Assembly (NCBI RefSeq): GCF_020886695.1 | Contig: NZ_AP024485.1 | Location: 753,001 to 817,000 of the forward strand | Reading direction: 5' to 3' | Origin: Pseudodesulfovibrio sediminis | GTDB taxonomy: Bacteria; Desulfobacterota; Desulfovibrionia; Desulfovibrionales; Desulfovibrionaceae | DNA: 64,000 nucleotides | In this document: piece after piece, positions 59,601-62,788 of the stretch | How positions within the stretch are numbered: position 1 is the first letter of the stretch | How the letters are laid out: the number at the start of each line of letters is the position of its first letter | Translations under genes and position numbers: made by a program | Notes under the pieces: generated by a model | Databases searched by the model: none | The model's input: the letters and a program-made list of their open reading frames with translations, nothing else | What the model was told of the DNA's origin: nothing

Positions 59601-60350
59601 TCATAGATAATGGCTCAAAATCCGGTCGAACCAACCATTCTCCCGCAACAGCTTTATACGTGTGTTCACTTCCGACATGCGTTTTTCCCAAGCAGGAACA
59701 TTGCTGAAAACGAACCGCAATTGAACAGTCGAAACCGGACGCTGCGCTTCATGAAAATTTGAACTCTCCCAATCAGGTGAAGTCCGAATCAGCCACCGGG
59801 CCTCGGCTTCATCAATAACCGCACAATCAACTCGGCCCGCCGTGAGCATCTTCAACAGCAAAGAAACCGAATTCGTATCGTAGCGAGTCATCTTTCCGGC
59901 ATCAAAATACGGTTGTATCGCAGGATAGGAATAATTCTTGATACACCCGACTGTCAGTCCGTTCAGATCATCAAGAGTCTCAAACTCGACAGGTTTGTTC
60001 ACAGAGGAATAGAGCCGGGTATTCAGCGCCATAACAGGCTCGCTCCACAACCCCTTATCCAATGAACCACACCACTCAGACGCCTCCAGGCGGGCATAAA
60101 TCCGCTCACTGGTTCTCCGAAGAAGCTCCCTAGGAGCTGGATCCGGCTCTACTTCGACAGTGACATCAGGAGGAACCACAGCCTTGAGAAGATCAACTGC
60201 AACGCCCGCCTGACTTCCTCCGGCAGCCATCTCAAAAGGCGGCCATCCACGGGAAAAAAAGGCAAAGGTCACTGTCTCCCCATCCGCATAAAAAATGGAG
60301 GACGACAAAGTGAGCACAAAAGTGAGAAAAACAATTTTCAGTGTATGCAA
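59601..60350 (-). CDS. Periplasmic solute-binding protein, family 3
   Basis: About 249 residues with a signal peptide (FLTFVLTLSSSIFYAD). VTFAFFSRGWPPFEM and VDCAVIDEAEARWLI are binding-protein motifs. The likely start is TTG 60350, five bases after GGAG; another TTG at 60365 lacks a ribosome site. No transporter genes are adjacent, so it may be a lone sensor-type or scavenging protein. It diverges from the ADTH synthase leader. Confidence 0.72.
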   Translation of the reverse strand: MHTLKIVFLTFVLTLSSSIFYADGETVTFAFFSRGWPPFEMAAGGSQAGVAVDLLKAVVPPDVTVEVEPDPAPRELLRRTSERIYARLEASEWCGSLDKGLWSEPVMALNTRLYSSVNKPVEFETLDDLNGLTVGCIKNYSYPAIQPYFDAGKMTRYDTNSVSLLLKMLTAGRVDCAVIDEAEARWLIRTSPDWESSNFHEAQRPVSTVQLRFVFSNVPAWEKRMSEVNTRIKLLRENGWFDRILSHYL

Positions 60351-60413
60351 AAAGACTCCAGGCAATGACTAAATATGAATCAATGACATTGAGTGCATAC
60401 TTCTGCATGTAAA

Positions 60414-60461: not shown

Positions 60462-60489
60462 TTGACATTGTCCACTCTGAACAGATAAC
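60462..60489 (+). promoter_or_regulatory. Sigma70-type promoter for the ADTH synthase leader
   Basis: TTGACA (60462-60467), 16-base spacer, GATAAC (60484-60489). The predicted start falls at about 60495-60497, almost on the leader peptide ATG, so the leader may be translated from a nearly leaderless mRNA; an undetected upstream promoter is the alternative. Confidence 0.5.
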
Positions 60490-60497
60490 CCGAATGC

Positions 60498-60575
60498 ATG
60501 CATAACATCACCGCACGATTCTTTTTCTTTTTTAGCTATTATTTTAGAAACGCCTGCGGTCTTGGTGTGCACTAG
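60498..60575 (+). CDS. Phe/Tyr-rich leader peptide of an attenuator
   Basis: 25-codon frame ATG 60498 to TAG 60573-60575, reading MHNITARFFFFFSYYFRNAC and ending GLGVH. Five consecutive Phe codons, then Ser-Tyr-Tyr-Phe, is a composition hard to explain except as a charged-tRNA sensor, as in the pheA leader of enteric bacteria. No strong ribosome site lies before it. The last codons overlap the antiterminator arm. Found upstream of the first committed gene of aromatic amino acid synthesis. Confidence 0.75.
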   Translation: MHNITARFFFFFSYYFRNACGLGVH

Positions 60576-60637
60576 TTATTATAAAGAGTCACAAAACCCC
60601 AAGAGGCCGCAGGTAGTATCTGCGGCCTCTTTTTTTG
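60553..60637 (+). promoter_or_regulatory. Antiterminator/terminator pair (transcription attenuator) before ADTH synthase
   Basis: Terminator: AAGAGGCCGCAG (60601-60612) pairs perfectly with CTGCGGCCTCTT (60620-60631), followed by TTTTTT. Antiterminator: CCTGCGGTCTTGG (60553-60565) can pair with 60599-60613 over 13 bp with a two-base bulge, which uses up the terminator's 5' arm. A ribosome stalled on the Phe/Tyr codons leaves 60553-60565 free; one reaching the stop codon covers it. Confidence 0.78.
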
Positions 60638-60675
60638 TAGGGTCGCACCGATCGGTCAAAACAAAGGAGAACAGC

Positions 60676-61467
60676 ATGCATCTCGGTAAAGCAATTCGTA
60701 TGGAAAGGATCATGAACCGTAACAACGGCCGAACCATCGTGGTCCCTCTGGATCACGGCGTAACCGTCGGCCCCATCTACGGCCTGATTGACCTTCGTGA
60801 CACTGTCAACCAGGTGGCTGAGGGCGGCGCCAATGCCATGCTCATGCACAAAGGTATTCCCCGCTGTTCTCACCGCGCAGGCGGCAAGGATATCGGCCTG
60901 ATCATTCACCTCTCCGCATCCACCTCTCTTTCTCCGTACCCCAACGCCAAAACCATGGTCGGTTCGGTTTCAGATGCCATCAAACTCGGGGCGGACGCTG
61001 TCTCCATCCACGTAAACCTGGGTGACGCCACCGAAACGCAAATGCTGTCCGACTTCGGTGCCCTCTGTTCGGAGGCATCTGAATGGGGCATGCCCGTACT
61101 CGCCATGGTCTACGCACGAGGCCCCAAAATCACGGATGAATACGCCCCGGAAGTCGTGGCCCACTGCGCCCGCGTCGGCGTGGAGCTCGGTGCCGACATC
61201 GTCAAGGTCAACTATACGGGAAGCCCCGAGAGCTTTGCCACCGTGGTCAACGGCTGTTGCGTCCCGGTAGTTATCGCTGGCGGTCCTCGCCTCGAAAGCG
61301 AACGCGATCTGGTACAGATGGTCTACGACTCCATCCAGGCTGGCGGTTCCGGTCTCTCTGTCGGCAGAAATATCTTCCAGCATCCCCACCCCGCAAAAAT
61401 TGTGGCCGCACTGAACAAGGTTGTCCACGAGGACTGGGAAGTGGATGCCGCCATGGAATTGCTCTAG
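60676..61467 (+). CDS. 2-amino-3,7-dideoxy-D-threo-hept-6-ulosonate synthase (ADTH synthase; DhnA/class I aldolase family)
   Basis: 263-residue class I aldolase-type barrel. IVVPLDHGVTVGPIYGL (Asp26), IVKVNYTGSPESF with the probable Schiff-base Lys177, and VVIAGGPRLESERD with GGSGLSVGRNIFQHPHP for phosphate. Archaea and Desulfovibrio-type bacteria use this enzyme, with aspartate semialdehyde, to start an alternative route to 3-dehydroquinate. Fructose-bisphosphate aldolase is the competing annotation; the Phe/Tyr attenuator upstream favours the aromatic role. AAAGGAGA precedes ATG 60676. Confidence 0.82.
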   Translation: MHLGKAIRMERIMNRNNGRTIVVPLDHGVTVGPIYGLIDLRDTVNQVAEGGANAMLMHKGIPRCSHRAGGKDIGLIIHLSASTSLSPYPNAKTMVGSVSDAIKLGADAVSIHVNLGDATETQMLSDFGALCSEASEWGMPVLAMVYARGPKITDEYAPEVVAHCARVGVELGADIVKVNYTGSPESFATVVNGCCVPVVIAGGPRLESERDLVQMVYDSIQAGGSGLSVGRNIFQHPHPAKIVAALNKVVHEDWEVDAAMELL

Positions 61468-61630: not shown

Positions 61631-62788
61631 ATGAAACACGTCTGCACCCTTTTACTTCTGACAACCATGCTGGGTTCATGTTCCAGATATGATGCCGTGC
61701 GGCTTGCCCGCGCAGCCGCTACCGGCAATCCTGCCTCCGCCGCCGAATCCCTGGCACGAGACAAGGCCATGGGCTATGCCACCAATCCGGCGGCGATCGG
61801 CACAGACCTCAAGCAGTTCAACAAGCTTGTCGCCGATTTCATCAAGGCGGTTACAGGGGCCTGGGGCAAAGACGACGCTCGAATTCCGCAACCCAAACAA
61901 TACGTCAAATACACCCAGAATTATCTCTCGCGCGCCAGTGTGGACTTCGACACCGGTGTTATCACAGTAGAAACCATTGATCAGAAAGACCCAAACCAGA
62001 GCCTGAAAAACGCCATTGTCACCACGCTGCTGACGCCTGGCGACCCTCGGGCCGTGGATCTCTATTCCGCCAAGACCATCAAACTCGGCGACACACCATT
62101 CCTGATGGGCGAGGTCAAGGATCATGAGAACAAGGACATCCGCTGGGCGTGGCGCGCCGAACGCTTTGCTGACCATCTCTTGCAGACCGATCTCAAAACG
62201 CGCACCGTCAAAGACAAGACCGCGCATTACGTGACCTTCCCCATGATCAAGGACCACTTGAATGTACGCGCACAAAAATACAAAACCATGGTCACGGAAG
62301 CATCAACACGCTTCAACGTCAGCAGAAATCTCATCTATGCCATCATGAAAGTGGAATCCGACTTCAACCCGTTTGCCGTAAGCTCAGCCAAGGCAATAGG
62401 CCTGATGCAGGTCGTTCCATCCACGGCCGGGAGCGATGTATACCAGTATCTCAACGGCCACCAGGGCACGCCGTCCCCCAGCGCGCTCATGGCTCCAGGC
62501 ACCAACGTTAAATACGGCAGCGCCTACCTCCACCTGCTCCAGACACGTTATTTGAAAGGCATACAGGACCCGGTCTCGCGGGAATACTGCGTCATAGCGG
62601 GATATAATGGCGGAGCTGGCACGGTATTGAACGCATTCAACAAGGACAAGACCCGCGCGGTATCCAAAATCAACTCCCTGCTTCCCGACTCCGTATACGA
62701 CACATTGCGGTCAGATGTTCCCTATGAAGAGACACGTCGCTATCTTGGCAAGGTACTTGATGCCAAGAAGCAGTTCGTCAACTTTTAG
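61631..62788 (+). CDS. mltC: Membrane-bound lytic murein transglycosylase C (MltC), lipoprotein
   Basis: 385 residues. Lipobox LGSC near residue 17. The N-terminal half matches the DUF3393 domain of MltC; the C-terminal SLT domain has NLIYAIMKVESDFNPFAVSS with the catalytic Glu, KAIGLMQVVPSTAG and YCVIAGYNGGAGTVL. Cleaves peptidoglycan at the outer membrane. Upstream, 61481-61514 forms a 10-bp hairpin without a T-run. Confidence 0.88.
   Translation: MKHVCTLLLLTTMLGSCSRYDAVRLARAAATGNPASAAESLARDKAMGYATNPAAIGTDLKQFNKLVADFIKAVTGAWGKDDARIPQPKQYVKYTQNYLSRASVDFDTGVITVETIDQKDPNQSLKNAIVTTLLTPGDPRAVDLYSAKTIKLGDTPFLMGEVKDHENKDIRWAWRAERFADHLLQTDLKTRTVKDKTAHYVTFPMIKDHLNVRAQKYKTMVTEASTRFNVSRNLIYAIMKVESDFNPFAVSSAKAIGLMQVVPSTAGSDVYQYLNGHQGTPSPSALMAPGTNVKYGSAYLHLLQTRYLKGIQDPVSREYCVIAGYNGGAGTVLNAFNKDKTRAVSKINSLLPDSVYDTLRSDVPYEETRRYLGKVLDAKKQFVNF

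Follow-up and report, generated by a model that had tools for sequence, protein, structure and literature searches.

Introduction

The classical ribosome-mediated attenuators are those of enteric bacteria: trpL, pheL of pheA and pheM of pheST. Entry into the aromatic pathway of Escherichia coli is divided among the DAHP synthase isozymes AroF, AroG and AroH, which are separately tuned to Tyr, Phe and Trp by allostery and repressors. For sulfate reducers, Table 7 of a 2005 paper lists a putative attenuator, taken from Merino's web list, before the aroA'-aroB'-pheA-aroF-tyrA-trp operon of Desulfovibrio vulgaris (PMC1173090). In D. desulfuricans, nitrate induces aromatic amino acid genes, an effect left unexplained in the accessible text, where neither 'attenuat' nor 'leader' occurs (PMC5701242). 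The trpL of Sinorhizobium meliloti is described in the accessible part of its report as leaderless, the ATG being the 5' end of the transcript (PMC7298713), and an Rfam-based survey, as far as its accessible text goes, suggests that amino acid attenuator motifs are of gamma-proteobacterial origin with very few transfers (PMC3766115).

Here we describe a locus in a 64,000-nucleotide stretch of Pseudodesulfovibrio sediminis DNA (the window) that is very probably a ribosome-mediated transcription attenuator of the trp/phe type, sensing Phe and also Tyr, and controlling a gene for 2-amino-3,7-dideoxy-D-threo-hept-6-ulosonate (ADTH) synthase. A reading made earlier from the letters of the window (the sequence-only reading) had proposed such a device and knew of none on this gene. 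That impression of novelty holds in part: neither Phe, Tyr or Trp leaders nor isozyme-specific switches on ADTH synthase were found described in the open-access literature (subscription papers lay outside the search), but the accessible text of PMC1173090 already contains the putative operon attenuator of D. vulgaris. No paper linking attenuation to hept-6-ulosonate was found in the open PMC literature, and the open Desulfovibrio papers on leader peptides were unrelated, judged by title. PMC545781 mentions neither 'leader peptide' nor 'aromatic', and Desulfovibrio does not appear in the accessible parts of PMC2965389 and PMC1262725.

Results

The leader ORF and its terminator

The elements of the locus are collected in Table 1. 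The leader frame, with its five consecutive Phe codons (codons 8-12, 60519-60533) and the Ser-Tyr-Tyr-Phe that follows, lies exactly where it had first been placed, and the perfect terminator reported downstream was recovered as a stem of 14 pairs with a 3-nt loop (60601-60631) and a T-run to 60636.

Table 1. Features of the attenuator locus (positions in the window).
Feature	Position	Strand	Evidence
Predicted promoter: -35 TTGACA (60462-60467), 16-nt spacer, -10 GATAAC (60484-60489)	60462-60489	+	Sequence; spacing in the family
Leader peptide ORF MHNITARFFFFFSYYFRNACGLGVH, 25 codons, stop TAG at 60573-60575	60498-60575	+	Sequence; kept in orthologues
Segment 1 (core 60510-60517); forms the protector helix with segment 2	60499-60519	+	Folding; cognate-specific pairing; double-sided changes in 5/16 pairs
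Regulatory codons Phe5-Ser-Tyr-Tyr-Phe	60519-60545	+	Sequence; Phe runs at the equivalent place in relatives
Segment 2, inside the final leader codons; partner of segment 1 or 3	60549-60571	+	Folding; covariation
Segment 3, terminator 5' arm; partner of segment 2 (60552-60565, antiterminator) or segment 4	60599-60614	+	Folding; covariation
Segment 4 (60618-60631) with T-run (60630-60636); forms the intrinsic terminator with segment 3	60618-60636	+	Covariation, 6/14 pairs
ADTH synthase, stand-alone paralogue	60676-61467	+	TIGR01949 equivalog, 389.7 bits (cut-off 299.45)

The Phe run by itself is unremarkable; it is the combination of features, and its conservation, that sets the locus apart. 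Genome-wide, the pattern TTYx5 is not enriched (21 occurrences against 27 of the reversed pattern), and for lack of that excess it was dropped as a finder of other Phe leaders. When ATG-initiated ORFs of 12-45 codons with at least six aromatic residues in 12 and a terminator behind them were sought, the locus was the single hit in the window, and 30 shuffled windows gave none. The alternative that a T-rich frame produced the Phe run by chance, with the terminator merely ending an upstream transcript, gains something from the ordinary frequency of TTYx5, but it hardly deserves credence: the combination is absent from the shuffled windows, the upstream ORF (59601-60365) is oppositely oriented, and retention of the arrangement at 94 of 103 rows from the family already contradicts it.

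Other bacteria possess other regulators of aromatic genes, and a terminator with an antiterminator would by itself suit a switch in which a riboswitch, T-box or RNA-binding protein moves the hairpins and the short ORF plays no part. We consider this very unlikely, because the aromatic codon run is constant and fits the downstream gene, and because in a scan of the locus against Rfam no family reached its gathering score and the 14 matches up to E 10 included no T-box. The Phe_leader and Trp_leader models scored 20.4 bits (RF01859; gathering score 55) and 21.1 bits (RF00513; gathering score 41), respectively.

A predicted near-leaderless transcript

The candidate promoter has a weak -10, matching consensus at 4 of 6 positions, and a simple promoter scan of the window did not list it. 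With the leader ATG lying 8 nt downstream of the -10, transcription is predicted to start at that ATG or a few bases from it. The earlier suggestion of a nearly leaderless leader finds its support in the relatives, as a conserved spacing from -35 to ATG: a -35 with at most one mismatch begins 33-42 nt upstream of the leader ATG at 74 of 83 deduplicated family loci, compared with 249 of 4578 control windows, while the best -10 at these loci reaches only 2-5 of 6 matches. Anti-Shine-Dalgarno energies of -5 kcal/mol or lower were found for 26/83 family leaders versus 82/83 gene starts. Together with the promoter spacing, this suggests that the leader ORFs of the family may be leaderless. Outside the family, the 50 nt ahead of the leader start contained no TTGAC box in any of 19 leaders from a phylum sample or in three further ones, and the upstream sequence was often purine-rich (judged by eye); leaderless leaders thus look like a trait of this family.

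The controlled gene and its paralogues

The gene behind the terminator was correctly named as ADTH synthase; its best relative of solved structure is MJ0400 (E 1e-92). To this it can be added that the gene is one of three paralogues in the genome, all above the TIGR01949 equivalog cut-off, and that the copy heading the aro/trp operon has a Phe/Tyr/Trp leader of its own, MNTTSSNAYFSNYYFGYWFSRARGLGRGAV. Downstream of ADTH synthase in that operon, 3-dehydroquinate synthase II, prephenate dehydratase, aroA, trpD, trpB and trpA exceed curated equivalog cut-offs and trpG a subfamily cut-off, while trpE and trpC are best matches that fall below theirs; tyrA is our own reading, with no family at E 1e-40. 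The third paralogue (L003, G000:C1:2231993-2232772) has no leader, as is the case for L115, L134, L145, L147, L157, L162 and L167, these rows falling into two clades of the tree.

In this genome (3.76 Mb, one contig) the aroB family PF01761 has no match, and the sole match to PF00793 is KDO8P synthase (KdsA). As far as these two families show, the ADTH route is therefore probably the only way into the aromatic pathway. A membrane-bound lytic transglycosylase (Mltc_N, SLT) is encoded downstream, at 61631-62788. Between the window's ADTH synthase and the end of the window no aromatic pathway gene was seen, so the gene is probably transcribed alone.

Three mutually exclusive helices

The whole leader (60495-60640) folds at -46.2 kcal/mol, compared with -29.3 (sd 3.7) for 200 shuffled versions (z -4.5). 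The proposed pairing of the last leader codons with the 5' arm of the terminator is real, the 2:3 duplex (60552-60565 with 60599-60614, including a 2-nt bulge) being worth -24.7 to -25.2 kcal/mol. As to the classical layout, the two exclusive hairpins stand, but the sequence-only reading had overlooked a third pairing, of 60510-60517 with 60551-60560, which completes the series 1:2, 2:3 and 3:4. With its outer pairs, this protector helix is the minimum-energy fold before the terminator arm exists (-19.6 kcal/mol). Ribosomes were modelled with textbook footprints. When everything to 60545 was covered and the transcript extended to 60617, the 2:3 helix formed (-26.9 kcal/mol); placing a ribosome at the stop codon gave the terminator. 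The ribosome-free transcript ending at 60617 likewise had 2:3 as its equilibrium structure. The protector must therefore prevail by folding earlier, as it does in classical attenuators.

Conservation and covariation

Of the 103 ADTH synthase rows of the family, four belong to the genome itself (one place twice), 11 were obtained by scanning public genomes and 88 come from other relatives, with some species present twice; 60 regions, 59 of them in other genomes and one the genome's own operon, were hand-picked across genera among the matches listed. Automatic assignment gave 95 leaders, from which L134 was rejected before counting as it looks like the end of a gene. A leader and terminator thus precede 94 of the 103 rows, or 83 loci once near-duplicates are removed. 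One row scored as having no leader (L152) has a weak Phe stretch ahead of a terminator. In L154 and L155 the terminator ends ~235-240 nt before the assumed ADTH synthase start, which may be wrong, compared with ~40-100 nt in most rows, and in L122, L123, L131, L136, L137 and L139 tandem ADTH synthase genes head the operon behind one leader for both.

In the nearest orthologues the Phe run is retained, although its codons show synonymous changes, and a NACGLGV-like tail comes after it. Complementarity of segments 2 and 3 was significant (p <=0.05) in 75 of the 83 loci, and that of segments 1 and 2 in 41. When cognate segments were compared with non-cognate ones across the 83 loci, residuals of -5.25, -3.41 and -4.38 kcal/mol were obtained for 1:2, 2:3 and 3:4 (0/5000 permutations for each), with no cognate preference for 1:3 or 2:4, which are mild controls, segments 1 and 3 both resembling the complement of 2. 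All three signals persisted within the Phe clade (23 loci). Reversing the sequences abolished those of 2:3 and 3:4 and left 1:2 with a residual of -1.96.

An alignment of 19 of the 23 Phe-clade loci (L011, L012, L013 and L093 being excluded by hand) was used to examine compensatory change. In the three helices 95.4, 95.4 and 78.9 per cent of cells were paired, against at most 57.5, 51.0 and 52.1 per cent when the helices were slid, and the covariation score of each helix exceeded all 500 shuffles and all slides. Changes on both sides occurred at 6/14 pairs of 3:4 (20 cells), 3/14 of 2:3 and 5/16 of 1:2. Here as in the other comparisons counts are non-independent, the sequences being related. 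The count for 2:3 is not above its controls (one slide also gave three pairs, and 30 of 500 shuffles reached three), one slide of 1:2 gave six, and the number of pair types in 3:4 was below that of 492 of 500 shuffles. The comparison that the sequence-only reading had recommended, of aromatic codons and compensatory stem changes among relatives, came out positive.

Given the peptide, codon choice adds little to 2:3 pairing (p <=0.05 under synonymous recoding in 19 of 83 loci). As a test of selection at the RNA level this is weak, and pairing and peptide conservation are thus partly confounded. Such a result would also be expected of a nascent-chain arrest peptide, in which the C-terminal NACGLG would stall the ribosome on a free amino acid or other signal and the codon run would be secondary, and a NACGLG/ARGLG-like C-terminal stretch does recur in the family. 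We nonetheless hold arrest to be improbable: leader tails differ in other families, the conserved tail residues coincide exactly with segment 2, and the Phe, Tyr and Trp codons vary with the gene controlled. Codon-dependent attenuation remains the best explanation of the conserved codons and covarying stems.

Leader codons follow the gene they precede

Copies of ADTH synthase were called operon copies when a dehydroquinate synthase II gene followed within the stretch of sequence examined. The aromatic run contains Trp in 49 of 50 operon leaders and in 1 of 33 stand-alone leaders. Among the latter, 23 have Phe runs, three have Tyr runs (L121, L125, L143), six, including the window's own, contain at least two each of Phe and Tyr, and one combines Phe with Trp (L169). 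Relatives of the window's gene have a signal that is chiefly Phe, with a minor share of Tyr codons. Phe-type paralogues form one large clade in the tree (24 rows, 99/89) and a second (L148, L151), while Tyr-rich paralogues occupy two separate clades; some deeper forks are weak. Specialisation of paralogues seems to have arisen more than once.

The position of trpE was compared with leader Trp content in 46 of 48 genomes, G005 and G041 having been excluded because their ADTH synthase and trpE genes lie on different contigs; Trp was counted on manually entered leader stretches and linkage was judged by eye from positions. Where trpE is linked to ADTH synthase, the leader contains Trp in 36 of 36 genomes (mean 1.78). 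Where it is unlinked, the figure is 5 of 6 (mean 0.83), and where no trpE was found at E 1e-90 it is 1 of 4 (0.25), two of these four genomes being less than 90 per cent complete. The notion that Trp codons are lost whenever trpE is unlinked was thus only partly right, as five of six leaders keep one. Five of the six detached trpE genes, three of these being from one genus, are preceded by their own leader containing WW or WWW, together with a terminator; the sixth (L239) is uncertain. In L236, L237 and L238, Trp-triplet leaders (GWWWR) precede the detached trpE, with a terminator of different sequence (GCGCCGTCTCC...).

Leaders on other genes and in other groups

A covariance model built on Phe-type leaders had matches in 50 of 59 family genomes at E 0.01. 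Twenty further match places were hand-picked, mostly because they did not coincide with known ADTH synthase places. By similarity, the gene behind them was a sodium:solute symporter in eight cases, ADTH synthase in seven, a phenylacetate-CoA ligase-like gene in two, trpE in one and none of these in two (L217, L231), which lie ahead of none of the five genes sought and have no convincing aromatic leader. The symporter match of the genome itself (G000:C1:467377-467520) scored 81 bits, with a fold z of -6.8 and a PF00474 protein downstream. The surrounding region (L216, G000:C1:467200-471000) contains a Phe-rich leader, MNTNQNRFSFFFFFSFRFFRSACGSEVCM, and a terminator, followed by a small membrane-like ORF and then the symporter. 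Symporters of the same family stand behind model matches in L218-L223 and L225, which suggests that they import Phe or an aryl-acid.

In L227 (G048:C1:706500-709500) and L232 (G054:C4:87500-90200), Phe-rich leaders and terminators precede phenylacetate-CoA ligase-like and ACT-domain genes. The ligase-like protein of L227 scores 618.6 bits against TIGR02155, below the cut-off of 646.3, and that of L232 is 74 per cent identical to it. This suggests that these genes may serve to make Phe from phenylacetate instead of degrading it.

Outside the family, the public scan yielded a leader and terminator at 10 of 69 other loci, all titled as Desulfo- genera or families, Deltaproteobacteria or Syntrophaceae. 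In the phylum sample the combination was present at 19 of 26 loci, two terminators being weak and some species represented twice. The 2:3 pairing of outside-family leaders was significant in 2 of 9 cases and, in a wider search, in 6 of 12; in one of these six (L190), 2:3 may be a second terminator and not an antiterminator.

Discussion

The locus unites an ORF rich in codons for an end product, three mutually exclusive pairings, a terminator before the gene and a target enzyme at the entry to the pathway of the amino acids in question, and the case for ribosome-mediated attenuation is as strong as sequence alone permits. In the mechanism we propose, RNA polymerase would start at or beside the leader ATG. 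With ample charged Phe-tRNA, and Tyr-tRNA, the ribosome would reach the stop codon and cover segment 2, so that the 3:4 terminator would form and ADTH synthase would go untranscribed. Were Phe or Tyr scarce, the ribosome would stall within Phe5-Ser-Tyr-Tyr-Phe, covering segment 1 and leaving segment 2 free to pair with segment 3 before segment 4 is made, and transcription would run into the ADTH synthase gene. If translation were absent, 1:2 would form first and the terminator would win.

The same device would be set to Phe, Tyr and Trp before the aro/trp operon, to Phe or Tyr before stand-alone ADTH synthase paralogues, to Trp before detached trp genes and to Phe before the sodium:solute symporter. 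We think it likely that, in sulfate reducers using the ADTH route, control of aromatic synthesis lies largely with this family of attenuators: paralogues would have their own sensor peptides (Phe, Tyr, or Phe, Tyr and Trp), codons would be rewritten as trp genes move out of the operon, and a transporter and a phenylacetate-CoA ligase-like gene would have come under the Phe version as it spread. The proposal amounts to isozymes of pathway entry in which codons by themselves set the tuning to separate end products. Leader codons would then predict the role of the gene downstream, making the sodium:solute symporter a predicted importer of phenylalanine or a precursor.

Like the enteric attenuators, the locus has a leader ORF of end-product codons, the pairings 1:2, 2:3 and 3:4, an intrinsic terminator and a biosynthetic target. 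Unlike them, it controls the ADTH synthase of the non-DAHP route, appears to be leaderless, has no Rfam match above the gathering score and belongs to a set in which several codon versions serve paralogous enzymes. The likeness to AroF, AroG and AroH of E. coli is that isozymes of pathway entry are tuned to separate end products; there, allostery and repressors act on a different enzyme, whereas here separate attenuators are predicted on ADTH synthase paralogues. On this view the E. coli DAHP synthase isozymes would have a counterpart at the level of RNA, one that works through leaderless sensor peptides.

The putative attenuator of D. vulgaris concerns the same enzyme family and is presumably the operon version of the same device, matched by its description and not by sequence; the term 'leader peptide' is absent from the accessible text of that paper, in which neither a stand-alone paralogue nor a codon analysis was seen (PMC1173090). 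With S. meliloti trpL the locus would share a leader ORF whose ATG is at the 5' end of the transcript, but that is a Trp leader with a 5' end stated in the accessible text (PMC7298713), while the one predicted here derives from promoter spacing. Classical attenuation that is widespread in this group would contrast with the gamma-proteobacterial origin suggested in the accessible text of the Rfam-based survey (PMC3766115). Compared with these systems, the novelty lies in the target, in a leader that appears to be leaderless and, most of all, in a set of sensors with codons matching the duty of each gene.
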